A DNA stretch of 58,649 nucleotides from positions 1 to 58,649 of the IMG/VR virus record IMGVR_UViG_3300017917_005175, one strand, 5' to 3'. Shown here piece by piece: positions 3,708-46,299 of the stretch. Within the stretch, counting starts at the first letter, position 1; the number at the start of each line of letters is the position of its first letter. The DNA comes from a virus. The notes under the pieces are model-generated. The model worked only from the letters and a program-made list of their open reading frames with translations. It did no database searches and was not told the DNA's origin. A program made the position numbers and the translations under genes.

Positions 3708-6700
3708 TTATAATTTTCTTGCTTTTATGTAATCTGCAGGATCAATAACTGACTTAGGATATTGTTGATAAAATTCAACATTTTTAATTGCATCATCAAA
3801 CATTCTTGCTACATCTTTTTCTGGCATATTGTCAATATGTTGCTTAAAAGCTGCAATAAAATTAGGTGAGTATAAATCCTTTATCACGGCCGCAGCTATG
3901 CTTCCTTTAGGTTTAATTCTTTGTCTAGGATCTACAAAATTGACTGTAAATGTCGCAGCAGAAACTAACTTTTCGAAAAATCTTTGACGAGCAATCAAAG
4001 ACAATCTAATGTCATCTAGGTCTCCAATTGTTAAATCAGGAGGAGTCATAACTTTTGCCCAATCGCCTTTTTCATATTTTTTCATCAAGTCGCTGACTTG
4101 CTCTTTTTCATTTTGTATAATTCTTAGATTCTTTTCATCATATCTACAATTTGCTAAACCAATGGAATAATTTACAATTTCATTCCAAATGTCATCATCC
4201 GCTGGATTTGAACCTTCCTTTAAACCTGCAGGGCTCTTGCTGGATCTTAATCCATTAGGAAGCCAATCACTATTGTAATTTTTATGAAACCAGTCTATAA
4301 TAGCTTGACGCAAACCGTCTTCATTTTTAATACTTTGTGAATAAGATCTAGCAGAGTCAAAATAATCACCTACCAACATATTGTGAAATTGTCTATAAGG
4401 ACTAAATTTGTCTTCTAACATTTTCGAAATAAATTTAGGATCAATATTTGTCTTCAAGTTTATTTTTTGTGTAATTAATCGATTTTTGTATATTTCTTCT
4501 TTAGAAATTTCCATACTTTGTTCTTTTTGATTAGCCTGATTAACGTATGCCTTTATTGCATCCTGCCAATCTTTCGAAAGCTTTACGCCTTGTTCAGATG
4601 GTTCAGCCATTCTGTATTTATTGAAAATGTTTGAAGGTGTAAATTCTTCATCTTCAATGTTTCCAATCCTTTCAAAAGGCTTTTGTTCAACTTTTGCAGT
4701 TTTTCCTTTTCCTGTTGTTTCATATGAAAAAGGTTTCATTGAAGGTGCAGTACTAATTTGTTTTTCAATATCACTAATCTGTTGTATTAAATCATAATCA
4801 GGATCACTTTCGATTGAAGTTTCTTGTTCACCTTTTATTTTTTTTATTAATTTATTTTGATAATTTTCTATTTTTTCTTCAAGGCTGTATATATCATCAG
4901 ATATGTCATTTATTCTGTATGACAATGAATCTGCTTTATCGTCATTTCCTTCTTCGTATGCATTTTCAATTTCTAGTTCTATATTTGATTTATTGTCATA
5001 CAAATTATCCAGATCTTCATTCATCTTCATAAAAACAGGATCATTAGAAAGTATCTCAAAGACTTTATTGTTTATTTCTTCTTCTGTCATATGAACTGCT
5101 TCATTACCTAACGTTAATTTTGCAGCTTTTTCTTTTGCCGCTTTAAATCTTTTTGGATTTTCATTTTCCATGGTTTCAAGTTTTTTAACTAAATCTTGAT
5201 ATGAAGAACCTTCCATGGCTTTGGATAAACCGTATTTTGAATCAAATGCATCTAACCATTTTTGTAATGTCAATGTTTTAAGTTCTGATAATTTATCCGA
5301 TTTTAAAAGATCTTGTACCCACATAGCTTGAAGTAAAACTCTTGAAATATGTTTTTGTAGACCCGATGCATCACTGTATGTTCCTGTTTCACCAGAAATA
5401 GCTTGAAGAGTCCATAAGCCGCTCTTGTGCAGTTTATTATTGATATAAGATCTATATTTTTCCATTGATACTTTTAAAAAGTTTAAACGCTTGGTGATGT
5501 CTGGATATTTAACTCCTGCAACTTTGTCAATTTTTGCTTGTATAATGTCAGATGTTTGATCAATAAATTTATTCATTTTTTTAGAATATTCCGAAAAAAC
5601 ATCCTGTCTAATTTTTCTTTTTGTTTTAACCAAAGTAAATCTATCTGTACCTTTTGGTATCTTCTGAAACTCTGATTGTTCTGATATTTCTTTTTCCATT
5701 GACATAACAGTTAGATTTAGCATTGTGTATATTTTATAAAAGTCTTCAAGTCTGTCTAGATTGGTTATGCTATAATCATTTTGTAATTCTAATAATTCAT
5801 TTAATTCAATGTCTTCTGTCTTAATGTCTTTTTCGAATTCTTCTGCAGGTTTATAAAGATCTTCTGGTTTTAAAAATTGATTTGAGTTAATTTTAGTTTG
5901 AATTTGATTAATAATTCTTTTATATTCTGACACTTTTTGCAAAAGAGTTATTTCTTCTTCGTCTGTCAAATCTTCTTCTTTTTCATCACTAGTAATACCT
6001 CTTTCTTTTTCCCAACTAAGTCTCTCTTTTCTCTTTTCTTTTTCCAAAGAATTCATTTCAATGTCTAATTGTTCTTCATAATCTTTTATGAATTGATCTC
6101 TATCCTCAGGAGACATTTTTTCTATCTTTTTCTTTGTAGCTACATCAAAGTTGTAATCTGGTATATTTTTCTTCTTTTCTTCTTCCTCTTCGTATTTAAT
6201 TTGCTCTACCTGATTGTATTCATTAGATATAGCAGATATAATTTCTTGAACAGTGTTCATATTTATGCCAGAATTTGGTCTAGGTTGACCAGATATTCTG
6301 TCTATTCCTAGAACACTTTCTAGATAACTATTTACTTCATTATACTTTTCATTTATAATTTCTTCGAATTGTTGCATATTCGTAGATGATAAATCAAGCT
6401 TTCTATTATTAAGCTGAGCATAAAATGTACCATATCTTTCTTGACTCATATTTTCACTTAAAGATGAATAAATTTTCTTTTTAAACTCTCTTGCAAATTT
6501 AGCAAATTTAGCTACTCCTTCTGGATCTTTTGTATTTTTAACATACCTTGAAAAATCTATTGAAGTAATTTCTTTTTGTTCTTCGCTGGTTTTTTGAAAT
6601 TGTTTATCTAAGAATTCTTGGTCTAGCTCCCAATGTTGCATATTGCTATAAACTTTATCTAAATAATCATACCATAAACTTTTCCAGTATTTGTTTCCTT

Positions 6701-13600: not shown

Positions 13601-15814
13601 TTATATTAATCTTTTTCTTCTTAGCCTGTTGTCAAAAAGCTTTGACAAAGAATAAGAATTTAAGCCTTGAGATTGCGCATATTTTTTCAATTGACTTAAT
13701 TTCTCTTGATACTCTTCTTTACTTATTTTTTTAGAATTTAATTGAGCGTTTAACTTTGAAACTTTGTCAGTAAACATTTGTTGAAGGTCATTCCATACTT
13801 CAGGAACAAATTTTATAGAATTTTTTGTACTTACTATTATTTTCTTTTTTTCTTCAAGATCTATAGAAGGAAATCTATCAAATATCTGATTTAATGAATT
13901 TGTTAAATCTTCTTTTTCTATTTCTGTTTTTTCATACTTGATCAATAATTTTTTAATTAATTCTTTTGCAGATGCCGTAATATCTTCTTTAGAATATGAA
14001 ACTATTTTTTTTATTTTTCCTTTAAATTCTAGACCATTTTTATCAAAGCATTTAAAACCTTTACTTAAAAAGAAGCAAAGATTATATAACATAAATCTTT
14101 GCTTTTCATTTTTCATTTCTCCTTTTGTTACAAATTCAAATATGTCTAGATCTTCAATTTTATTAAAATCTATATTAAACCATACAGAATTAATTTTCCA
14201 GTTTCCTGCTATCACTTCGTCTATTTTTTTCGAACCTTTTAATTCTTCTTTGTCAAGTATATTTGAATCTAAAACGTTTCTTGGAATATCTTCTTTACTC
14301 AATATTTTTTGTTGATTGTATTGCCAAACGGCAGGATACTTTCTTGTCCCAGATTGTTTTGTTGCATCTTTATATGAAATTTCGACATCTCCGCCACTTA
14401 TTGAACTTAGATATTCTTTTAATTTTTTATAATTTATTGTATTTTTAACATTTTCAAAATGAAAACCAGAAAAAGGGTTTCTGTATCTTTCTAAAAAATT
14501 TGCTTCTTCTTTTTGGATTGCATCCTTAATGTCACTTTCATAAACATTTTTTGTTTTTAATTTTTCAATATTTTTTTTGAAAAAAGTTTTTAAGCAAGAT
14601 AACCATATCTTTTTGTATATTTCTAATAATTCATTGTTGTTTTCTGTTATAAAGGAAGCAAGTTTTTCATTTAAATCAATGTCTTTGTTTTTAAATTTTT
14701 CATTTATATCATCATCTTCTGACGTAAAAATATTTGCAGCATTTGTGGGAATTTTATCAGCTCTATTAAAAAAAATCAAATCAAAAAGTATAAATACACT
14801 TTTTTCTTTTATATATACTTTTTGATTTTGATCAACATTTAATTTTTCTTTTATAAGGTCAGAACAAGGAACATTAAATGATTCATTTCCTGTTATATTT
14901 TTATAATCATCAATTAATTGTTTTATACTTTCTATATTAGAATATTGTCCATTTTCTTTTGAAAATATTCCTTCTAGATTTAAATCTTGATAATTTGAAT
15001 TTCCAAACTTTATAAAATTAGACATATTTCCGGCTCCAAGCTTAGAATTTATAAAATTGTATAGAAATAAACCTTCATCATAGCCAATATTAAAACTTTC
15101 AAATCTTTCTTTTTCTCCCATTTTTAAGTCTAAAGATTTTCTAAATTTCTCTATTTTTTCTAAAAACTCTTTTTTCTTTAGCAATTTTTTATTACTTCCT
15201 GACTTATCTTTTTCAGCATATGACTTAAAAGTTTCAGTTCCAAGATCTCCTGAGCCTCCACCTGCAGCTGTTATTTTTCTAGTATTTAAATATAAAAAAA
15301 CGTCTAAAGTTCCTGCACTTGTGCCATTTCCTATTTTTTCCTTGCAGATATTATATGCGTCATTTTTTTCTGAATTAATAAATCCTAATGCACTGAGTTC
15401 ATTCTTGCTTATAGTATTAGGATTTTTATAATTTTTTTCTCTTTTTTCACAATATTTTAAAAAGTCTTTGTCTAGTCCTTTTTCACCTTCATATGCTGTC
15501 AAACTATGTATAACAACAACTTCTTCTTTTCTGTCTTTAAGATCTTCGACATTGTTAAAAAAATCATGATCTGCGTTTTTAAACCACCATCTTTTTAAAT
15601 CGTTTAAATATGTCGGTTTCAATCCTGTTTGAATGTTGTATTTAAAACCTTTTTCTTTGTCTTTGAAATATTCTCCTTCTCCTCTAGTGTCTTCTTTTTT
15701 ATTGTATATTTTTCTATACTCTTCTCCTGCAGGACCTTTCCATTTTTCATCGGATATTTCTTTTAATAAGTATTTTCTTATATTTTTTCTTATTTCTTTC
15801 TCTGAAACCAACAT
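13601..15814 (-). CDS. Large tagged protein, paralog of the 405-aa gene upstream of dnaE
   Basis: A 737-residue protein beginning MLVSEKEIRKNIRKYLLKEI, a basic amphipathic leader ending L-K-E. Several segments match the 405-aa protein at 20777-21994: the WWFKNADHDFFNN/KKWFNKHADQNWLN segment, then VVVIHS/VIALHN, ISKNELSALGFIN/INKNEMSAYGLIN, SGTRKYP/SGARKWP, and VIAGNWKINSVWF/IVVGNWKIESVWA. It is nearly twice as long because of extra helical, charged material in the middle and a C-terminal coiled-coil tail. The shared block is a family I do not recognise. The leader suggests packaging in the virion and delivery to the host. Invariant His, Asn and Trp residues could be catalytic, but no reaction can be named. 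Confidence 0.75.
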   Translation of the reverse strand: MLVSEKEIRKNIRKYLLKEISDEKWKGPAGEEYRKIYNKKEDTRGEGEYFKDKEKGFKYNIQTGLKPTYLNDLKRWWFKNADHDFFNNVEDLKDRKEEVVVIHSLTAYEGEKGLDKDFLKYCEKREKNYKNPNTISKNELSALGFINSEKNDAYNICKEKIGNGTSAGTLDVFLYLNTRKITAAGGGSGDLGTETFKSYAEKDKSGSNKKLLKKKEFLEKIEKFRKSLDLKMGEKERFESFNIGYDEGLFLYNFINSKLGAGNMSNFIKFGNSNYQDLNLEGIFSKENGQYSNIESIKQLIDDYKNITGNESFNVPCSDLIKEKLNVDQNQKVYIKEKSVFILFDLIFFNRADKIPTNAANIFTSEDDDINEKFKNKDIDLNEKLASFITENNNELLEIYKKIWLSCLKTFFKKNIEKLKTKNVYESDIKDAIQKEEANFLERYRNPFSGFHFENVKNTINYKKLKEYLSSISGGDVEISYKDATKQSGTRKYPAVWQYNQQKILSKEDIPRNVLDSNILDKEELKGSKKIDEVIAGNWKINSVWFNIDFNKIEDLDIFEFVTKGEMKNEKQRFMLYNLCFFLSKGFKCFDKNGLEFKGKIKKIVSYSKEDITASAKELIKKLLIKYEKTEIEKEDLTNSLNQIFDRFPSIDLEEKKKIIVSTKNSIKFVPEVWNDLQQMFTDKVSKLNAQLNSKKISKEEYQEKLSQLKKYAQSQGLNSYSLSKLFDNRLRRKRLI

Positions 15815-15846: not shown

Positions 15847-17190
15847 TTATTCAAAAGCAGTCAATCTTCTCATCTTACCAGCATTTGTTGATAAACCCCA
15901 ATCTGCCTGCATTGAAACTTCTGCTAACCATAAAGTGTAAGCAAAATCTTTTGTGTCCAATGAACCCCAAATCTTAATCCTGTTTGTGTTTCCTTCATTA
16001 TCAGCAATTGTTGCAGTGATAAAGTCTTTACCATTCTTTGTTTTCTTTTCTTTAAAGTCATTGAGAATACAGAACCAAGCAATTACTTTTGAACATTCAG
16101 GCAAAGTCAAAGCAGAAGGAACTTCTTTCTGTTCTAATTTTGAGATCATTTCAGAAGGATAAAGAAGATCTTCCTGAACATCTGAACTCAATTCAAATTG
16201 GTTATTAATCTTTTCAATTCTAGTCCAATCTGTGTCATCCTGTAATATCTCCTGTAAAAGTTTTTGAATGATAGGTTGAGGAGCTTGACCTGCTTTTTCA
16301 AGTTTTCTTTTTGCTGCATCTGTAATACCGTATCTACCTCTATGAAGTATGTCATAATTTTCAATGATAAGTTTGTAAAGTTGTTTATGATTAACAATGG
16401 TTCCACTTCTCATTTCTTCTAAGGAGCCAAAAGCTTCCATTTTGCATAATGCATTAAAAGACGCTTTATTCATTTTTGAATGTTTCCATTCTCCTTGTTC
16501 ATTAAAAAGCAAAGAGTCAATGTCTCTATAAGGTCTATTTAACATAATTTCATCAACAGCTTTATCACCGGTACCTTTGATCGAAGACAAAGGAGGAACA
16601 AATGCCTTAAGTTCATCTGAGTAATACCAGTCATTTCCTGAATAATTGATATCAATTGAACTAAATTTATAACCATAGCTCTTGATTTCTTTAATTGCTT
16701 TACCCATACCATCAGGACTACCTTTTTCAGACTCAAGAATAGTTGATAACCAATCTGTTTCATAATGAGTGTGCAACCAAGCCGAATAGTATGAGTCAAT
16801 TGCATAAGCAACAGCATGAGATTTATTAAAACCATATTGAGCAAAGAAGTCAATTTCTTCCCAAAGGCTAATAGCATTTTCAGAAGAGACGTTACTTACT
16901 GCTTTTGCACCTTTAATAAACTTTTCACGAGCATCTTGTCTTTCTTTGTAGATTGCATCAAGTTTTTCAACAGACTTTTTAACCAATGTTTTACGTAATT
17001 TATCACCTTCTGCAGGAGTAAAGCCTGATAATTTTTGAGCAACCAACATAAATTGTTCTTGGAAACAATTCGAAACAACAAATCCGTTTGCGATAAAGTT
17101 GTGATTTTTTTCTATGCCAATATCGAAAACTCTTTTCTTACTACCTCTTCTAATTGAATTAATTCTAATTTCTCTTGTTTCTGTAGACAT
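15847..17190 (-). CDS. dnaE: DNA polymerase III alpha (DnaE), C-terminal part with C-intein
   Basis: The first 41 residues form a C-intein: block F around RVFDIGIEKNHNF and block G NGFVVSN, ending in Asn41 with Cys42 as the +1 nucleophile; the penultimate residue is Ser rather than His. Residues 42-447 are the C-extein: QEQFMLVAQKLSG (conserved YQEQ region), the finger motif AQYGFNKSHAVAYA, helix-hairpin-helix-like sequence, and an OB-fold near the end (VIAWFCILNDFKEKKTKNG). After trans-splicing it completes a replicative polymerase of about 1200 residues. The start is supported by AAAGGTAAAAGA before ATG. Its 5' 79 nt overlap the homing endonuclease gene. The insertion site differs from the cyanobacterial DnaE split intein, whose equivalent site (before the FNKSH motif) is uninterrupted here. 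Confidence 0.92.
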   Translation of the reverse strand: MSTETREIRINSIRRGSKKRVFDIGIEKNHNFIANGFVVSNCFQEQFMLVAQKLSGFTPAEGDKLRKTLVKKSVEKLDAIYKERQDAREKFIKGAKAVSNVSSENAISLWEEIDFFAQYGFNKSHAVAYAIDSYYSAWLHTHYETDWLSTILESEKGSPDGMGKAIKEIKSYGYKFSSIDINYSGNDWYYSDELKAFVPPLSSIKGTGDKAVDEIMLNRPYRDIDSLLFNEQGEWKHSKMNKASFNALCKMEAFGSLEEMRSGTIVNHKQLYKLIIENYDILHRGRYGITDAAKRKLEKAGQAPQPIIQKLLQEILQDDTDWTRIEKINNQFELSSDVQEDLLYPSEMISKLEQKEVPSALTLPECSKVIAWFCILNDFKEKKTKNGKDFITATIADNEGNTNRIKIWGSLDTKDFAYTLWLAEVSMQADWGLSTNAGKMRRLTAFE

Positions 17191-17948
17191 TCTTTTACCT
17201 TTTCTAGAAAAAGACTAGACATTGATGACCATATTCTTATTATATTATAAGAATTATTTTTTGCAAATACAAAACTGTTTTTATCTAGCATGTATTGTTT
17301 TTTCATTCTGTTGGAAATAAAATGTAGCTCTGGATTACCATGCCAGAAGTCTCCATCGAATTCTAGAATTAAATTTAATTTTTCTATATAAAAATCATAT
17401 ACGTGATAAAAATCATTTATTTTAAAATTTCTTTCTACTTTTTCAAAAATAGAATTCAATTGCATAAAAAAATCATCTTCTTGCTTAGATGTTTTTCTAA
17501 TTTTTGAACTTTCTTTTGATTTAGCTTCTCTCATTTTAATAGACATTTCTCTTTTTTCGTCTTCTGATTTTTTATGCATTGCATTAATATGAATATTTAA
17601 TCCTGCTTTTGATTTAAATTCAATATTACAAATTTCACACATGCATGTTTCTTTTTTATGACCACATGTAGATTTATGTGCCCTTAAAGAAGTGTTTGTT
17701 TTGTATATTTTTTGACATCGATCGCATTCAAAATTTCCTTCATGTCTAGAGTTTTCGGCTAAAGCAGCAATTCTATTTTTTTCTTTTGTTTCTTCTGACC
17801 TTTTAAAACTTAATTTCTTTCTTGTTTCTTCTGTAAAAAACTGAGATGTCCCAAATTGCTTTAAATATTTTATTCTGCAATCATGAGAACAGAACTTTTT
17901 CTGTTTTTTTAAGGCCTTCGAGCAAATTATGCATTCTTTTAATTTCAT
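17112..17948 (-). CDS. Vsr-like homing endonuclease between split-intein halves
   Basis: A free-standing endonuclease gene lodged between the two halves of dnaE. The N-terminus has Cys/His fingers (CIICSKAL with FCSHDC, CDRCQKIYKTNTSLRAHKS, CEICNIEFKSKAGLNIHINA). The C-terminal domain has the E-x-D-x-D-x-x-H nuclease signature LILEFDGDFWHGNPE typical of the very-short-patch-repair-like homing endonucleases known from fractured phage genes. ATG at 17948 (MKLKEC) is chosen over 17966 because GGAAGG lies just upstream. The last 26 codons run out of frame over the C-intein coding sequence. The expected role is cutting intein-less dnaE alleles at the insertion site so the element spreads. Target site unproven. 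Confidence 0.88.
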   Translation of the reverse strand: MKLKECIICSKALKKQKKFCSHDCRIKYLKQFGTSQFFTEETRKKLSFKRSEETKEKNRIAALAENSRHEGNFECDRCQKIYKTNTSLRAHKSTCGHKKETCMCEICNIEFKSKAGLNIHINAMHKKSEDEKREMSIKMREAKSKESSKIRKTSKQEDDFFMQLNSIFEKVERNFKINDFYHVYDFYIEKLNLILEFDGDFWHGNPELHFISNRMKKQYMLDKNSFVFAKNNSYNIIRIWSSMSSLFLEKVKECLQKQEKLELIQLEEVVRKEFSILA

Positions 17949-17976
17949 ATAACCTTCCAAGAGCATTTAAATTTAA

Positions 17977-20671
17977 TTATTTATTTAACCCAATTAATTT
18001 ATCGTTTTCTGTTAATTCTTCTGCTTTAATCCAACCTCTTTGTGTCAAAACTTTATGATCAGGTGTTAATTCTATTTCACCTTCTTCTGTTTCAATAATA
18101 ATTGTTTCTTTTTCACCTTGATCCCAGAATTGTACGATTTTATCTTTTTCAAATGATTTTGTATCATTGTTATATGACATAAGATTTAAATCCATTTTAT
18201 TGTTTACAATTTCTTCAATTGTAATTTCACCTTTATCTGTTAATACTTTTGTATCTCCTGCTAAACAGAAAAACCCATATGTCGGTCCTAATACTTCTTC
18301 AATCACAGGATGAATATATTCAGGATTTTTTCTTTTGGCTTCTTCTTTAACTTTAACATATTTTTTATGAACATTTGCTTTTAAAGGACCAGGACGATAA
18401 ATTGCTGTTACTGCTGCCAGATCTTCAATGTTTTGAGGCTTGGCTTCCATAGCAAAGTTACGAGCACCTCTTTGAGCAAATTGAAAAATACCTGTAAAGT
18501 GACCGTCTTCATAAACATGTTTCCAAACCATAGGATCATCCTGTTTAACATATCTACAGTTTAAATGTTTATCAAAAAACTCTTTAATTTCGTTAAAGGA
18601 TGGTTCTCGTTTTGTTTCACGTTTTAAAATACGTCTAATGCAGTTTTCTACATCTCTTAATAATGTCAAACCTAAAAAGTCAAATTTAAGAAAACCATTG
18701 TCTTCAAGATTTCTAAAATTTAAACCTTCAGCCCAAGGTGTTTGTAATTCACCACGAACACCTACCATAGGTAATGTTTCTTCAAGTTCTTTAGGATCAG
18801 CAACAATAACACCACCAGCATGTCTACCAATCGATTTATTTTGTGCAAATAATGTCCTGATATGTTCTTCGACTTGTGGATATTTTTCCATAAATTCTTT
18901 GTATTTGGCACTATAAGCCATGCAGTCTTCATGCTTTAAAACGAAAACAGATTTTTCCATGCTTTCATCCATTGCATGATAAATTACTTCTTCTTGCAAA
19001 GGACCTGTAACAGCATTGACTTCTTCAAAAGGAACATTATGGAATTTTGAAATGTCCTTTACTAAAGATTTAAGCTTCAATGTATTAAAATTACTAACTG
19101 GAACAACTGCTTCTTCACCAAATAACTTTTGTGCAGCTTTAATTAATTCATCACGATTACCAGCGTCTGTATCGATATCAGGCCAATTTACACGATGGCG
19201 ACCTAAAAATCTATTCCAAAGAAGATTGTAAGGAATAGGATCAAGTTGCGTGATGCCTAATAAATAATTAACCAAAGATCCTGCGCCTGAGCCACGACCA
19301 GGTCCTAAAAATGTATGATTTTCAGCTTCTTTAAAGATCTTATACATTGTCAGAAAGTATGCTTCATGTCCAAGATATTTGATATCTGACAATTCTTCTT
19401 TTGCACGATCTACATAAACTTGATTGTCTGCCAAACCTTCTTTAACTAATGCATCTTTAACAAGATCAGTTAATTGCTGCATTGTTGTTCTATTAGGTAA
19501 ATCAGTTACAGGCAATTTAACCTTTGTGTCAATCCATGTGTCATCACACATTTCCCAAGCAATATCACTTGTTCTTTCAATTGCTTCTTTAACTAATCCT
19601 TCATTGCCTTTATAGAAATCAAATTCATTCCATGCTTGTTGAAATTCTTGCCACATTTGATCTGCGTTTTTAGGATACAGTTCACATTTTAAATCTTCAA
19701 ATTTAGGTAATTCATTTGCATTATTACTACCAATCCAGCCAAGCTGTTTATACATTTCTCTAGCTAACCATTTATCAGGAGAAGGATAATGACTATCACA
19801 TGTAGCGATTAGAGGAATACCTGTTAATTTATGATGTTCTAATAAATAATCATTAACCACATGTTGTTTTTCAAGCTTGTTGAATTGTAATTCCAAATGA
19901 AAGCCTTCACCAATGTATTGATGAAAACGATCTGTTAGATTTTTGAGTTCATTTTGAATTTGATCACGTGATTGACCATGAGCAACACCTCTTAAGATAC
20001 GATTAGAATAGATACCACCTAAACAAGCGGTCGAAACAATAAGATCAGAACCAAATTCTTTTAACATGTCAAAATCAATACGAGGATAACGATAGAAGCC
20101 TTCCTTGTATGACTTTTTAACCATAGTAAATAGATTAGCCAAACCTTTACGATTACGAGCAACAACAACAAGATGATAACGTCTTTTCCATTCATCGTCC
20201 ATGATGTTTAATGATTTTGTTTCATTTTCATCTTCAATAACAAGGCCACCAGCATCTGCATCATCATCTGCGTCAATGTCAATCTTTTTCTTTGCTAACT
20301 TTTCTGCTTCATTTGAAGACTTGGCATCTTTAATTGCTTGTTTATGTGCAGCATAATCAGAAGACCAGTCTTTAAGAGAAGGAACAAAATAACATTCTAC
20401 ACCATATAATTGTCTGTATTCTACACCTTTCTTTTGCAATTTAGCAGTATGACTTCTAGCATGAGCTAAACCATTGGCATTACCATGGTCAGTTAATGCC
20501 CAAGCGTTCATGCCATTTTGAAGGACAAAGTCAATATGTTCATGAGGATAACCTAAACCGTCATATGTAGACCATTCAGGAGAACGTTGAATGTGCATGT
20601 AAACCAACAAATTTGCTAGGCTTACCGCACACAACGTTCTCAAAAACCCCTTTGTGTTGTGTAGTTGTCAT
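17977..20671 (-). CDS. dnaE: DNA polymerase III alpha (DnaE), N-terminal part with N-intein; start needs +1 frameshift
   Basis: The catalytic half of the replicative polymerase. Numbered from the uninterrupted frame (888 codons from a TTG at 20643): PHP segment WALTDHGNANG near 48-58; palm GPGRGSGAGSLVNYLL (447-462); catalytic Asp489 and Asp491 in WPDIDTD; third Asp655 in KFDFLGL. The N-extein ends GPTYGFF, and a 96-residue N-intein begins at Cys793 (CLAGDTKVLT), with block B TPDHKVL. A better start is ATG at 20671, with AAAAGGAA upstream. Its 31 codons give KFVGLHAHSTFS, the expected PHP metal motif, then hit TGA; a +1 shift at TCC TGA joins it to the main frame (EWSTYDGLGYP). This is either programmed frameshifting or an indel. 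Ligated with the C-part it would be near 1207 residues. Confidence 0.9.
20576..20584 (-). other. Candidate +1 frameshift site (TTC TCC TGA) in dnaE
   Basis: On the minus strand the upstream frame reads TTC TCC TGA. Skipping the T of TGA continues as GAA TGG TCT, the frame of the rest of the polymerase. UCC UGA is the same shift codon/stop pair used by eukaryotic antizyme genes, and bacterial prfB uses the analogous CUU UGA. The upstream 31 codons encode a typical PHP beginning with HAH, so both frames look coding on either side of the junction. No stimulatory Shine-Dalgarno was seen immediately 5' of the site. A sequencing or natural indel is the alternative. Confidence 0.5.
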
Positions 20672-20776: not shown

Positions 20777-21994
20777 TTAAAACCAGTTAATTGTAACACC
20801 TGCATCCATAAAAGCTTTTAATCTGTAGAATAATTGTAAACTATCATCACCGTCTACATACATATCTTCTTGCCGTTCATAAATCCAAGATAAATCCTGT
20901 TTTTTTATAATTTCGCCATCGCTTATTTCTCCACGTAGCCATTTTTCAAATGTTTCTTTGGTTTTGAACCATCCGTCAGCTGTAGAGTCTGCCCATACAC
21001 TTTCTATTTTCCAGTTACCTACAACGATTTCACCTAAAACATGTGGCCAGTCAGGATCGTTATATTCTTCATCAGATGACCCTCCTAAGTAAGTATTTTT
21101 TCTTGCGTCTTCATAATCTTCAAAGTCTAAAATACTCATTTCGTTTTCATATTCATCTTCATATGACTTGACTGAACCTGCTTTTGAATATGCATTTGGC
21201 CATTTTCTTGCACCTGATGTTTTAAAAGATTTGTCATAATCATAACTGTCATTTGTTCTAAGATATTCATATTTCTTTTTAATTTCATTAAACTTGTTTC
21301 TAATATGTTCAGACATGTCTTTTGTTTCTATTCTTCCTGCATCCCATAATAGAAATTCACGATCATCAGGTTCTATGAAAGATTCATATTTTTCAAAAAA
21401 ATCTATAGGATTTAATTTGCTCCATACGTCAAGACCTGTAGGTTTTACTTTAGGATAATATCTGTATGTTGTCGTAGAAGAGTCATCGATTGCAGCATGT
21501 GTTATTCTTCTTGGCGAAAAATGTAAAAACATTCTTTTATTTGCTGCAGAGCCTAAAGCATCAGTAACTAATTTAGGTAGCATGTCTCTTAAATAAGAAT
21601 CAGTACTAACAGTGTCTGCATCTAGATTAATTAAACCATATGCAGACATTTCATTCTTGTTAATTGTTCCAGGTCGATATTGTCTTATTATATCTCTTGC
21701 GCATTGCTTCTGATCGTGATACGCTCTATATGAAAAAGCGACAGGATTATGTAATGCAATAACATTTTCAACAGGTCCATTTAGCCAATTCTGATCTGCG
21801 TGTTTATTAAACCATTTTTTGCCTTCTCTTCCTCTTCTATTATAAAGAGGAAAACCTTGCATTCCTTCTGGTGTTTTATCTCTAAATTTTTTAAATTCTT
21901 GATATTCTTCCCATGCTTTATTTCCAGGAACTCTTTTTGAAGTTGAAATTTCATTTAACAAATTTCGAATATATTTTTTAAGCAATATTGACAT
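20777..21994 (-). CDS. Tagged 405-aa protein, paralog of the 737-aa protein
   Basis: Starts MSILLKKYIRNLLNEISTSK, a leader ending L-N-E-I closely similar to that of its paralog. Shared blocks with the 737-residue protein are KKWFNKHADQNWLN, VIALHNPVAF, INKNEMSAYGLIN, SGARKWP and VVGNWKIESVW, in the same order, so the two are homologous over most of this shorter copy. The two copies flank the fractured dnaE locus. The family is not recognised. The leader suggests the mature protein starts near residue 15 after cleavage and travels inside the head. Its 3' region is followed by an unusually AT-rich upstream spacer of dnaE. Confidence 0.75.
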   Translation of the reverse strand: MSILLKKYIRNLLNEISTSKRVPGNKAWEEYQEFKKFRDKTPEGMQGFPLYNRRGREGKKWFNKHADQNWLNGPVENVIALHNPVAFSYRAYHDQKQCARDIIRQYRPGTINKNEMSAYGLINLDADTVSTDSYLRDMLPKLVTDALGSAANKRMFLHFSPRRITHAAIDDSSTTTYRYYPKVKPTGLDVWSKLNPIDFFEKYESFIEPDDREFLLWDAGRIETKDMSEHIRNKFNEIKKKYEYLRTNDSYDYDKSFKTSGARKWPNAYSKAGSVKSYEDEYENEMSILDFEDYEDARKNTYLGGSSDEEYNDPDWPHVLGEIVVGNWKIESVWADSTADGWFKTKETFEKWLRGEISDGEIIKKQDLSWIYERQEDMYVDGDDSLQLFYRLKAFMDAGVTINWF

Positions 21995-38680: not shown

Positions 38681-39193
38681 TTAGTCCTCGTTAAATTCAC
38701 TTTCAACTAGATATTGAGCTATAGCTTCTTGTTCGACATAAGAATTAGGATCGATATCTAGATCTTCTGATGATAATTCATCTTGAGTTCTTGTATAGGC
38801 TTTATCAATCATAAAATCAATATAATCCTTATACTGTGGATCATTCATAATTTTATCAAATTCTGCTTTGTAGAATTTCTTTTCAATAAGAACCTTGTCC
38901 TGAATTGTGTCTTTGACAATAAAACTCTTCCAGGCTCCGGCACCTTCAATGATTAATGATTTATTGTCCATTTGAACTTCACCATATTTTCTTAAAGCAT
39001 CAAATACTTCTTCATGTTCTCTAATGCCTTTACCAAAAATAATTTGAAAATCAGCGCTTCTAAAAGGAGCTGAAACTTTATTCTTGATAATCTTTGCTGA
39101 TACGTTAATACCTATAGGTTCTTTATCTGGTCCTTCAATATGAGCTCCTGCTCCTAGCTTAATACGAACAGAAGAATGAAAAGGAATAGCTAC
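38681..39193 (-). CDS. recA: RecA recombinase, exon 2 (C-terminal 170 aa)
   Basis: The second exon begins GTA GCT ATT CCT, giving VAIPFHSSVRIKLGAGA. This continues exactly after STTPGG of exon 1, as in bacterial RecA, where TTTGGNALKFYASVRL is contiguous. It includes DNA-binding and C-terminal acidic regions (VEQEAIAQYLVESEFNED). The boundary is set by intron structure (last intron base G at 39194; P10 pairing of exon GUAGC with intron GUUAC). In unspliced RNA the same codons are the in-frame C-terminus of the intron endonuclease frame. The spliced RecA would be 407 residues. Confidence 0.88.
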   Translation of the reverse strand, partial: VAIPFHSSVRIKLGAGAHIEGPDKEPIGINVSAKIIKNKVSAPFRSADFQIIFGKGIREHEEVFDALRKYGEVQMDNKSLIIEGAGAWKSFIVKDTIQDKVLIEKKFYKAEFDKIMNDPQYKDYIDFMIDKAYTRTQDELSSEDLDIDPNSYVEQEAIAQYLVESEFNED

Positions 39194-40030
39194 CTTGCTA
39201 TCATCTAATTTCTTAGATGCTTGGACTATATCTTCAAAAATTTTTTCATATGAAATATTATTAATGTCTGTACTCCAATATCTTAAAAGATTATAGCCTT
39301 TATTTAAAATAAATTGACTTTTTTGATTATCGCTATTCCATATATCTTTTGCAGAGATATTCTTAGGACCAATCATGTCTGTTTCTTTAAAGAAAGAAGG
39401 ATTGGCATGCCAATAATCACCATCAACTTCAACAACAAGATTATATTCAGGAATATAAAAATCACATTTATATTTTCCTATACTTTTTTGCTGTTCGAAT
39501 TCTAAATTTAGTTCTTCTAAAATATCTTTAAACAATAACTCGGGTTTTGTATTTTTTGACGTAGAAGGAAGAATATTTTTTTGAGACCATTCATAAGATC
39601 TTTTTTCTGCTTCTTCTTTGCCAAATTTTATTTCCCATCTTTCAAAGTTTGATTTCTTCATCCAGTCTGTAACTCTACTTTTTGCTTCTGAATAAAACTC
39701 TTTCATTTTATCTGTTTTTGCAACTTTTTTCATAATTGCAGACTGTTTTTCTTTGTATTCAATTGAAGTTGTTGATAATATAACTGCATTTTTTCTTTTT
39801 TGCCTTAGTTCTAAATTTCCATAGACTTTATCCGACATTTTTTTGCAATTAATTTTATTTTCATTTGAATGTAACCACTTATTAAATCTTTCAAAATTTC
39901 CAAATAGTGCATTTGGATATATTTCTCTATATTCTCTTGTGGTCAAATCATGCTTTTTTAAATGAGAGTTTGTTATTGTTTTAAACATTTTGCCACATAT
40001 TTCACATTTATATTTTTGTTCCGCGCTCAT
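38681..40030 (-). CDS. Intron-encoded Vsr-like homing endonuclease, frame continuing into RecA exon 2
   Basis: A 449-codon frame of which the first 279 codons lie in the group I intron and the last 170 are RecA exon 2. It has an N-terminal C2H2-like finger CEICGKMFKTITNSHLKKH, a helical linker, then a Vsr-like nuclease domain: LEFEQQKSIGKYKCDFYIPE, LVVEVDGDYWHANPSFF (E-x-D-x-D-x-x-H) and KGYNLLRYWSTD. The final intron codons also encode ribozyme elements S and P9. Full translation from unspliced RNA would give an endonuclease-RecA fusion; splicing removes the stop-less frame's 3' part. Expected role: intron homing into intronless recA. The start has only a weak ribosome binding site (AGAAAG). 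Confidence 0.85.
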   Translation of the reverse strand: MSAEQKYKCEICGKMFKTITNSHLKKHDLTTREYREIYPNALFGNFERFNKWLHSNENKINCKKMSDKVYGNLELRQKRKNAVILSTTSIEYKEKQSAIMKKVAKTDKMKEFYSEAKSRVTDWMKKSNFERWEIKFGKEEAEKRSYEWSQKNILPSTSKNTKPELLFKDILEELNLEFEQQKSIGKYKCDFYIPEYNLVVEVDGDYWHANPSFFKETDMIGPKNISAKDIWNSDNQKSQFILNKGYNLLRYWSTDINNISYEKIFEDIVQASKKLDDSKVAIPFHSSVRIKLGAGAHIEGPDKEPIGINVSAKIIKNKVSAPFRSADFQIIFGKGIREHEEVFDALRKYGEVQMDNKSLIIEGAGAWKSFIVKDTIQDKVLIEKKFYKAEFDKIMNDPQYKDYIDFMIDKAYTRTQDELSSEDLDIDPNSYVEQEAIAQYLVESEFNED

Positions 40031-40287
40031 AGGTACTTTCTTCTTTGCAATTTTTTTATTTTTTTATGGCTAGATTAATATTCAATTGCAAAGATTATTA
40101 ATACTAGTCTCTGAACCTTCAACCTGTCACCAGGAGGCTTGGCTGCTGATTGTCTAATTCTTTAATTTTTCAAGCTTTCACACTCGCAATTACTCGCCAT
40201 GTTGTAGCATTAAAGACTCTAAAGAGTTTCCAGCAATTCACGGAATTTATTTTCTATTTATACTCTAGACTAGGAGGCGTAACATTC
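39194..40287 (-). ncRNA. Group I intron in recA
   Basis: A 1094-nt intron with conserved core elements on the minus strand: P, AATTGCTGGAAACTC (40224-40238); Q, AATCAGCAGCCAAGC (40137-40151); R, GTTCAGAGACTAG (40104-40116); S, AAGATATAGTCC (39223-39234). P7 pairs GACTA with TAGTC. P9 is a perfect 7-bp hairpin, CATCTAA-GAAA-TTAGATG, capped by a GNRA tetraloop (39202-39219). P1 pairs exon GGUGGU with guide GCCUCC, including the U.G at the 5' splice site; P10 pairs exon 2 GUAGC with GUUAC. The endonuclease frame starts after R, in the P3/P8 region, and continues through S and P9. Unspliced exon 1 reads six codons (ECYAS then stop) into the intron. Confidence 0.93.
40255..40262 (-). promoter_or_regulatory. 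TATAAATA box inside the recA intron
   Basis: TATAAATA, the T4-type late promoter core, occurs about 25 nt inside the intron. In T4 introns, homing endonuclease genes are driven by internal late promoters. Here the box is about 225 nt from the endonuclease ATG, and such 8-mers arise by chance in AT-rich DNA, so this is a weak candidate. Confidence 0.25.
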
Positions 40288-40998
40288 ACCACCAGGAGTT
40301 GTCGAAGGATCACCGTACATAACACCGATCTTGCTTCTGATCTGGTTTAGACAAACCAATAAAACCTTTTGATTGGCAATTACACCTGTAATCTTACGCA
40401 TACCTTTTGAAATTGCTCGAGCTTGCAAACCGATTGTGTCTTTATCGTATTCGCCTAACAATTCAGCTTTAGGTGAAGTAGCAGCAACAGAGTCCCAAAT
40501 GATAGTTACAGGAACATCCTTTTGCATTGCTTTAGCTTTCATGATTGTGCTTTCAGCAATTGACATAACTTCTTCAGTGCAATGTGTATCTACATAAACA
40601 AATCTTTTTGAAGTGTCAACGCCTAATGCATGCAAGTTGTCAATTGATGTTGCATTTTCTGTGTCAATATAAACAACAATACCACCTAATTTTTGTGTTG
40701 ATTTTGCAATCTGTGTTGCGATATGTGATTTACCAATTGAAGGAGGGCCAAATATTTCTACAATACGACCTTCTGGCAAGCCACCATTTTTACGATTTGA
40801 AATAATATAATCAAGTTGTTTTGAACCTGTACTAATCCATCGATTAACATGGGTAGGTGAATTGTCAGTTGACAAATTATATGCAACACGTGTTCCGCGT
40901 TCTTTGTTTAAAGATTTAATTAGGTCATCGGTAAAATCATCTAATTGATTGTCATTTAAATCTGGATTTAATTCTTTTTTCTTTTTAGCAATAGCCAT
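40288..40998 (-). CDS. recA: RecA recombinase, exon 1 (N-terminal 237 aa)
   Basis: A strand-exchange protein. Walker A is GPPSIGKS (84-91), Walker B PVTIIWDSVAATSP, with L1/L2-adjacent sequence LLVCLNQIRSKIGVMYGDP and the conserved end STTPGG. It is closer to bacterial RecA than to T4 UvsX in these motifs. The exon stops at GGT|GAATG, where the group I intron begins; without splicing the protein would end after five foreign residues. The start is MAIAKKKKELNPDLNDN, following a weak AAAGG site. RecA supports recombination-dependent replication and repair with SSB and DnaE. Confidence 0.92.
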
Positions 40999-44624: not shown

Positions 44625-45272
44625 CTAAATATTTTGAGAACCTTGTTTTGTTTTATATTTTTCATTTTCATATGCAAAATCAAAAGCCATTAGGCATAAT
44701 CTGACATTTAATGGGATATCATGCAAATAAAAACGATTTTCGTCAAGATGCATGCCATTTGAACATAAAATGCCGATCTGCTCTTCTTGGCTAATTTTGA
44801 CACCAAAATGTTGCAGTAGAAACAAAGTTCGATGAGGCGTTGACATCTTTTGACATGCAGGATTCCAATCATATAATTGGCCTAATTTATCACGATGCCA
44901 GTCACTCTTCTGTTCAATAAATTGTTCATTTTCTAAGTCTCCAATTCTTCCTAGAGGAGCCAGCAATGTAATCACTGCAATTGTTTTACGGGATGCATCC
45001 CAAATGTCTGTTTCTAATGCCTTAAGGATTTTATTGGCAGTACGAAAAGAATCAATGCTGTATTTCAGAAGACCTCCCGGACCACAATAAGGATCATCTT
45101 TCTTCAAGGTTTGTGTTGCCATAATCAGACGATCACTTAGGGTCTCAAGCATTTGATTAAGATTTTGATCGTCAAGTCGGTGCAAAAAGCCAGTGTAAGT
45201 TGTCCAAAGATCTACAAGTTGATTTTCATTAATTGACATAATATTAAACATTTCTTTCGGAGACAAGTTCAA
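44625..45272 (-). CDS. HD-domain-like protein with metal ligands lost
   Basis: A 215-residue protein. Its layout follows phage HD-domain proteins: CGPGGLLKYSIDSFRTANKIL (normally GGLLEHS, first His), TLLAPLGRIGDLEN (normally LLHDLGKIGD, the HD pair), a loop, then HRTLFLLQHFGVKISQEE and ILCSNGMHL (normally HxGMY). The first His is Tyr, the HD pair is Ala-Pro, and the His of HNGM is Ser, so a metal-dependent phosphohydrolase is unlikely. It overlaps the mini-polymerase gene by 29 nt, hinting at a replication accessory role. Inferred. Confidence 0.65.
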   Translation of the reverse strand: MNLSPKEMFNIMSINENQLVDLWTTYTGFLHRLDDQNLNQMLETLSDRLIMATQTLKKDDPYCGPGGLLKYSIDSFRTANKILKALETDIWDASRKTIAVITLLAPLGRIGDLENEQFIEQKSDWHRDKLGQLYDWNPACQKMSTPHRTLFLLQHFGVKISQEEQIGILCSNGMHLDENRFYLHDIPLNVRLCLMAFDFAYENEKYKTKQGSQNI

Positions 45273-46299
45273 GATTTAAAGGAAAATTTCCTAGACTAGG
45301 ACAATTATAACCTTGCTTAACAAGATTTACAAGTTTGTTTTTTGACTCTTTTTTAACATCAACAAACATTGCATCATGAATAAAGAACAAAGGTCGAATG
45401 CTTTCATCGAAATTGTCTATAAGTTGATGAAACCCGTTTAAGGCAACATCCACTGCAGAGCTCTGTATAAAGCCATTAAGGATTTGATTTAGACGAACAT
45501 CTCCTTCCCAATGGATTGGTCTGCCCCAATAAGACCTACGATACCCCCATTCATCCTGTTTCATTGCAAGTTCGAGTAAATATTTTATATTAAAATACTC
45601 ATGCAATGAATTCCTGATTATCTCGATTTTATCTGGTGATAATTCTCCTATCTCTAAATTCTCACCACCGCCATATAAAATTGAGATAACTGCTCTCTTC
45701 ATCACTGATCGATCGACTTGAAAATCCATTTTGTCACAGATCTCTTGATAGATGTCAGGTCCTGCTTCGGATCCTGCAATGTATCTTGCGACCCTAGGCT
45801 CAAGTGAAACAAAGTCAATCATGCAGATTTCACCACTTTCAAATTTGCTTTTGATGATGTTTCTGTATTTTTTAGGTAAATTGATCAACTTTGGTCCTTG
45901 AACAATCGAGAGGCGGCCACTTACGATGTTTGATCTAGTGTATCGTATTTTTTCCCTGCTTTTGAAGCTTTCTAGAAGATCCTTGACGCCTTCATTCTTT
46001 TCTAACCTCTTGTAAAGATTTAGAGCAAGCATGTCGACATTGTAGCTTCGAAGTTTTGAGTAGATACTCTCTTGTTTTGAAAGATTGAGAAGATAATCGC
46101 CTCTGTCTTTCTTTTGAAGATCGTCATTGATTTCTTTAAGATGAGTTAAGTATTCATCAAATTGATCATAGGAAATTGATCTTTCATCAAACTGGATTTT
46201 AAGGATGTCAAAGAAACTCAGGTGTCTTTGTAGGTTTTTATAACTTTCAATTTTGTATAGGTTTGAAAGCTCTTTTAGAAAAGGAGTAGGTTTGAGCAT
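45244..46299 (-). CDS. Mini family-A DNA polymerase
   Basis: A 351-residue protein consisting of a polymerase domain only. Visible are SGRLSIVQGPKLINLPKKYR (primer/template contact region), motif A MIDFVSLEPRVARYIAG with catalytic Asp162 and Glu167, motif B R197-x3-K201-x7-Y209-G in DRSVMKRAVISILYGG, and motif C FFIHDAMFVDV with Asp309 after His308. There is no 3'-5' exonuclease or 5' nuclease domain, and the thumb is short. As dnaE is the apparent replicase, this may fill gaps or bypass lesions. All catalytic residues are present, so it is probably active. Confidence 0.85.
   Translation of the reverse strand: MLKPTPFLKELSNLYKIESYKNLQRHLSFFDILKIQFDERSISYDQFDEYLTHLKEINDDLQKKDRGDYLLNLSKQESIYSKLRSYNVDMLALNLYKRLEKNEGVKDLLESFKSREKIRYTRSNIVSGRLSIVQGPKLINLPKKYRNIIKSKFESGEICMIDFVSLEPRVARYIAGSEAGPDIYQEICDKMDFQVDRSVMKRAVISILYGGGENLEIGELSPDKIEIIRNSLHEYFNIKYLLELAMKQDEWGYRRSYWGRPIHWEGDVRLNQILNGFIQSSAVDVALNGFHQLIDNFDESIRPLFFIHDAMFVDVKKESKNKLVNLVKQGYNCPSLGNFPLNLELVSERNV

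Follow-up and report, generated by a model that had tools for sequence, protein, structure and literature searches.

How could a phage obtain a complete replicative DNA polymerase from a gene that is interrupted twice? The question is raised by dnaE in IMG/VR record IMGVR_UViG_3300017917_005175, an uncultured phage record and linear fragment whose full 58,649 nt we analysed (the window). The gene lies on the minus strand in separate reading frames, with one interruption close to its 5' end and the other in the finger domain. We consider it likely that this dnaE carries a split-intein homing unit together with a short bypass element, a judgment weighted towards the intein part. With a split intein and a bypass in one gene, a functional polymerase would need one hop and one trans-splice.

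The broken 5' end of dnaE

An earlier note on this DNA had placed the start of dnaE at ATG 20671. That codon is out of frame with the rest of the N-terminal half: the frame that it opens reads MTTTQHKGVFENVVCGKPSKFVGLHAHSTFS (..GLHAHSTFS, then TCC-TGA) and stops at TGA 20578-20576 after 31 codons, a 5' break that the note had missed. The polymerase resumes in another frame, with TYDGLGYP, after a TCT 7 nt further on. The same 5' residues are broken in 21 of 102 unique loci and lie in one frame in the other 81. Nineteen of the 21 broken loci follow a common pattern, in which the Ser codon ending HxH(S/T)xxS (TCC, TCG or TCT) is followed immediately by a stop (TAG, TGA or TAA). The frame resumes behind another Ser codon (TCT, TCA or TCG; ACG in one case), the whole skip measuring 9, 10, 11 or 12 nt, such that all frames are represented.

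The RNA around the break is also distinctive. In all 19 loci, upstream RNA pairs with the take-off region in a stem of 10-16 bp with a loop of 37-44 nt, and the 3' arm ends at most 3 bases from the end of the take-off codon, usually on its second base. Measured in this way, pairing in the 81 continuous genes spans 4-9 bp. Across nine distinct classes the stem covaries, with two-sided changes in 8 of 12 pairs against a shuffled mean of four, and no shuffle attained the observed value. Stem cells are paired in 97% of cases, compared with ~50% or less once shifted by 1-3 columns, and folding z-scores for five stem-bearing loci run from -4.5 to -6.5. N-terminal extensions differ between break classes. 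The remaining two broken loci, L061 and L006 (read as L170), are without that stem and have a strong hairpin within a longer gap or close to it. Upstream of position 5188, L061 has the order TCG, TAG, terminator-like hairpin, TCG over 38 nt, at the same PHP codons; upstream of 1149 on its reverse strand, L170 has a 23-bp hairpin with a stop in its loop.

Taken together, the sequence patterns suggest programmed ribosome bypassing resembling that of T4 gene 60, in a short "stop-hop" form, and we think that this is probably what the 5' break represents. The ribosome would read to TCC with TGA in its A site; peptidyl-tRNA-Ser would then release and re-pair at TCT 7 nt downstream, aided by the upstream RNA arm, which would re-pair with the take-off region behind the ribosome, and reading would restart at ACA. 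T4 gene 60 likewise has a stop in the A site directly after take-off, codons that match at take-off and landing, and a 5' stem-loop whose refolding, as mRNA emerges from the ribosome, pushes sliding forward (PMC5009743; PMC11194080). Patchy presence and invasive endonucleases nearby are further points in common. In contrast, ~50 nt separate the take-off and landing codons of gene 60, compared with 6-9 nt in the dnaE loci, and the long gap is thus not found here. The dnaE break also differs in that the 3' arm of its stem includes the take-off codon, the codons are for Ser and not Gly, the gene is dnaE, and many related cases exist. Because the long gap is absent and the bypassing is something we infer, we label the break a candidate, a variant of gene 60 bypass. 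The natural cases of bypassing listed in a 2016 review are T4 gene 60, yeast mitochondria and a small number of candidates; the review attributes stop-hops over 9 nt to synthetic constructs and knows of no natural in-frame case (PMC5009743). We found no later report of a natural in-frame stop-hop in the literature searched, which covered few subscription papers.

Several observations weigh against a hop. The skip is 9 nt in 12 of the 19 loci, where readthrough of the stop would also stay in frame; the take-off and landing codons of the window are synonymous, not identical (identity is seen only in L039, L061 and L242); and L077 lands on ACG. By standard wobble, one serine isoacceptor could decode both codons in all tabulated classes except L077. 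The most common skip fits readthrough as well as a hop, and besides readthrough one has to consider a frameshift at the stop or a plain sequencing error. Relatives, however, also skip 10, 11, 12 and ~38 nt; every frame and each of the three stops occurs, and L085 has two consecutive stops. No reading other than a Ser-to-Ser jump yields a constant protein across the relatives (all but L077). Further, the break is common to many independent assemblies, and neither readthrough nor error gives a reason for a covarying stem that ends on the take-off codon. We regard these explanations as unlikely. Another possibility is that the 31-codon open reading frame (ORF) is dead and that a downstream restart yields a DnaE without its first PHP motif. 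TTG 20643 does open the main frame, and PHP proofreading can be dispensable in some DnaE proteins. Yet (R/K)FVGLHAHSxFS is retained by the upstream peptide, in the alternative frame, and a compensating stem comes after it; there is also no in-frame ATG near the break, and we consider a restart quite improbable.

The candidate bypass element is scattered on the dnaE tree (built on at most 200 residues), requiring 17 parsimony changes against a shuffled-label mean of 19.4 (minimum 15). Nearest neighbours differ: the window has the break and L002 does not; L005 has it and L003 does not. A blastn search of isolate phages did not find the element. This distribution suggests that the element is gained and lost quickly, like inteins, and one might conjecture that it protects the site from an endonuclease. 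A fair reading of these patterns is that a mobile short stop-hop element (9-12 nt from take-off to landing, with an upstream stem pairing the take-off codon) probably turns up repeatedly in the replicative polymerase gene across a large uncultured-phage family, coming and going almost at random on the dnaE tree, alongside split inteins that interrupt this gene at up to four places.

A split intein and a free-standing endonuclease gene in the finger domain

The second interruption was described in the earlier note as a split intein with a Vsr-like endonuclease gene between its halves, and this description holds in its main lines. The N half (ORF 20643..17977, minus strand) encodes PHP, palm and the start of the finger (Pfam PF02811, PF07733 at E=2e-51, PF17657). 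Its N-intein begins at a Cys at 18267, matches PF14890 above the cut-off (E=2.4e-9), and reads CLAGDTKVL...TPDHKV...NK up to a stop at 17979. The C half (ORF 17190..15847, minus strand) opens with a 41-residue C-intein, MSTETREIRINSIRRGSKKRVFDIGIEKNHNFIANGFVVSN, partly matched by PF14890 (E=6e-6), and continues with the remaining finger, HHH_6 and the C-terminus. The junction is ..NHNFIANGFVVSN^CFQEQ (a caret marks the insertion point), and the insertion at GPTYGFF^CFQEQ lies where the note had put it. All class 1 split-intein residues are present, namely Cys1, the block B TxxH, the C-terminal Asn and the +1 Cys, whereas the penultimate intein residue is Ser and not His, a point against our interpretation, although the cyanobacterial DnaE split intein likewise has no His there. 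When joined, the halves align end to end with solved inteins (Spl DnaX mini-intein 7cfv, E=1e-21; Npu DnaE 4kl5, 7e-12); this match over the full length puts the identification as an intein far beyond chance. A group I intron at this position is scarcely credible: one is present in recA of the same genome, but 16900-18500 gives no Rfam intron-model match even at E=1, and full intein splicing motifs stand on both sides.

Between the intein halves lies a free-standing endonuclease ORF (17966..17112, minus strand) whose product has zinc fingers and, at its C-terminus, a Vsr-like part. Translation probably starts from the second ATG, at 17948, because the L006 homologue begins at the equivalent methionine and GGAAGG stands just upstream. 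A Foldseek comparison of its AlphaFold model with the PDB ranks the I-Bth0305I catalytic domain (3r3p) first and Vsr (1cw0) fourth, with probability 1.00 each and E values of 0.004-0.014. The model is of low confidence (pLDDT 66) and the matches miss E<0.001, which again counts against our interpretation. As modelled, the nuclease domain has the Vsr-like fold of the EDxHD (I-Bth0305I) family, with which it has the E-F-D-G-D-F-W-H core in common; it differs from those enzymes in its N-terminal zinc fingers and in its placement between split-intein halves and not in a group I intron. A wider search for this endonuclease returned only the L006 homologue and remote mycobacteriophage proteins.

Dassa et al. 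in 2009 reportedly described "fractured genes" of phage origin, in which a DNA-replication enzyme is broken by a split intein and a free-standing Vsr-related endonuclease gene lies between the halves. The window is alike in its split replication enzyme, the endonuclease between the halves, the Vsr relation and the phage origin. As the note had also claimed, the host gene consists of two ORFs with an N-intein and a C-intein and a free-standing endonuclease ORF between them, and the order is the same in L006. By every testable feature the unit is of the fractured-gene kind, of which it is a new case, and that it is a split-intein unit of this kind with predicted homing is very probable. Once associated, the N-intein and C-intein would splice GPTYGFF onto CFQEQ and thereby restore the DnaE finger, so that the replicase would depend on trans-splicing. 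The Vsr/I-Bth0305I-like endonuclease would cut intein-free dnaE alleles at the conserved site, upon which, we propose, repair copies the whole unit.

A second intact dnaE, which would speak against such dependence, was looked for, and a single DnaE was found in the record. The record is a fragment, however, and a second polymerase could lie beyond it; it also contains a short PolA-like protein (351 aa, window 45244-46299, minus strand). The polymerase domain of this protein is shortened, and its motif C reads HDA in place of HDE.

Occupied and empty sites in relatives, and intein ancestry

Relatives were collected by a viral-contig scan with the C-extein alignment and an earlier single-sequence scan, giving 83 non-redundant loci including the window. 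By tblastn, 70 of these are uninterrupted and 13 are fractured, at seven sites (numbered on L002): ~204 STAC^LGG; 448 PGRG^SAPGS; 481-485 HR^TSWPD or PDVD^C; 600 NRS^CGRH; 723 FQFT^SGAR; 793, the insertion in the window; and 880 FNK^SHAV. L006 and L016 have three split inteins each and L004 has four, and DnaE of L004 is therefore encoded in five pieces. Compared with the fractured genes reportedly described in 2009, these relatives add up to four split inteins per gene and an endonuclease-deleted stage. The five-piece dnaE corresponds to L056 1915-8709 on the same contig, and three of its four split inteins are without a complete endonuclease gene. The split intein at FNK^SHAV, seen in L005 (4825-6001) and L006 (4715-6001), lies ~4 residues from the cyanobacterial split-intein site and has Ser as its first residue.

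Three loci, the window, L004 and L006, have an intein at site 793, which is empty in L002 and ~80 relatives. In the nearest relative, L002, there is a single, uninterrupted dnaE whose empty site reads GPTYGFIAFQEQ; its DnaE is 87% (N half) and 73% (C half) identical. L006 is arranged like the window, with an endonuclease 41% identical. In L004 the split intein is kept and the endonuclease is reduced to a 28-aa tail immediately ahead of the C-intein gene, scoring 30.8 bits against a maximum of 23.1 in 200 shuffles. An empty site, a site with endonuclease and a site with a remnant form the succession expected of a homing split intein. Between the window and L002, no co-conversion tract was detected, third-position identity neither dropping nor rising at the junction. 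A search for the unit in isolated phages gave DnaE matches that were all under 60% identity. In Rhodococcus phage Peregrin two neighbouring genes are annotated as DnaE, and a gut record (L169) with an uninterrupted dnaE was set aside as apparently bacterial.

The loss of the endonuclease in L004 could be taken to mean that the intein fragments are decaying remains and that the DnaE halves work unspliced, by non-covalent assembly; split polymerases do sometimes assemble, and splicing here is deduced from sequence. The three site-793 inteins, though only 54-57% identical, all keep Cys1, TxxH, the block F His, the terminal Asn and the +1 Cys. Each of the occupied loci has Cys at +1, as against V, T or others in most empty relatives, and decay of a contiguous intein would not yield three intact split pairs. 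Decay with non-covalent assembly is thus a poor explanation, and trans-splicing remains our preferred one.

The earlier note had called the insertion site non-cyanobacterial. This stands insofar as the site differs from AEY^CFNKSHS, the site of the cyanobacterial DnaE split intein (Ssp/Npu DnaE), which lies ~80 residues downstream of CFQEQ; that intein is also split, in dnaE, and without the usual penultimate His, but it has no endonuclease gene between its halves. The claim fails in that many cyanobacteria have contiguous inteins at exactly this residue. Scanning 84,980 prokaryote genomes with the pattern N(C/S)(Y/F)QEQxM, with chance matches set aside, gave >40 loci, mostly cyanobacterial, in which a dnaE intein ends at exactly the residue of the window; the upstream TYGxx^C junction is visible in most. 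Contiguous dnaE inteins at TYGxx^C(Y/F)QEQ occur in Trichodesmium, Okeania, Pseudanabaena, Thermosynechococcus and many other cyanobacteria, and inteins at this junction are also found in Planctomycetota, Eremiobacterota, Bacteroides and phages. Nearly all are contiguous, whereas that of the window is split; L108, L119, L123 and L147 have a frame break inside the intein. The cyanobacterial ^CYQEQ inteins are 139-923 aa long, and the size of most would imply an internal homing-endonuclease domain; many of their hosts also have the split intein at AEY^C further downstream.

A shared site need not mean shared descent. In a tree of splicing domains (a short alignment of 137 columns), the three phage inteins group together (ultrafast bootstrap 99) and adjoin site-600 phage split inteins (94), apart from the cyanobacterial ones. 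An origin of the phage split intein from the contiguous type of cyanobacteria was tried as a grouping and rejected by the AU test (p=0.033), as was monophyly of all inteins at this dnaE site (p=0.021), while a grouping of the phage split inteins with phage/Bacteroides-type contiguous inteins was not rejected (p=0.33). Unrelated inteins have apparently reached the ^CFQEQ site, which appears to be an exception to the generalisation that same-site inteins of orthologous proteins are close relatives (PMC2814812).

Gene layout and significance

Table 1. Parts of the twice-interrupted dnaE and their positions in the window
Feature	Position	Strand	Remarks
dnaE ORF1	20579..20671	-	DnaE start MTTTQHKGVFENVVCGKPSKFVGLHAHSTFS; 31 codons; ends at candidate take-off codon TCC (20581-20579)
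5' arm of covarying stem	20632..20641	-	GAGAACGTTG
3' arm of stem	20580..20589	-	CAACGTTCTC; last base is second base of take-off codon
Skipped stretch	20569..20578	-	stop TGA (20578-20576), ATGG, landing codon TCT (20571-20569); 10 nt, frame changed
dnaE ORF2, N-extein	18268..20568	-	remaining PHP, palm, first finger part, up to GPTYGFF
N-intein	17980..18267	-	96 aa; Cys1, block B TPDH, then stop
Free-standing homing endonuclease gene (putative)	17112..17948	-	C2H2/treble-clef zinc fingers and EDxHD/Vsr-like nuclease (LILEFDGDFWHGN); overlaps start of C-intein gene
C-intein	17068..17190	-	41 aa; ends VVSN
C-extein	15847..17067	-	CFQEQ..., remaining finger, helix-hairpin-helix, DnaE C-terminus

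The genes flanking dnaE (window 13601-15814 and 20777-21994, both minus strand) resemble each other by eye, each having K.WF..(N/H)AD near its start and GNWKI(N/E)SVW later, and neither has a Pfam or PHROG match. Elsewhere in the window, a group I intron (Rfam RF00028, E=6.5e-8 at 40248-40018) interrupts recA (38681-40998, minus strand); its 3' end lies near 39204, and its Vsr/DUF559 endonuclease ORF continues in frame into the recA 3' exon.

For the biology of this phage family, the intein part provides a phage replicase for comparing three kinds of allele at a single split-intein site: empty, putatively homing-competent and endonuclease-deleted. This is an unusually full set of stages, in a polymerase gene whose product needs assembly from up to five polypeptides, and one site holds inteins of apparently separate origin. 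The bypass part matters more. The split-intein unit is a new case of a known arrangement, whereas the 5' break, if it is what we propose, would give a very rare translation trick a new natural form. In that event, about 20 natural variants with differing stops, gap lengths and stems would allow the rules of ribosome hopping to be read from evolution.

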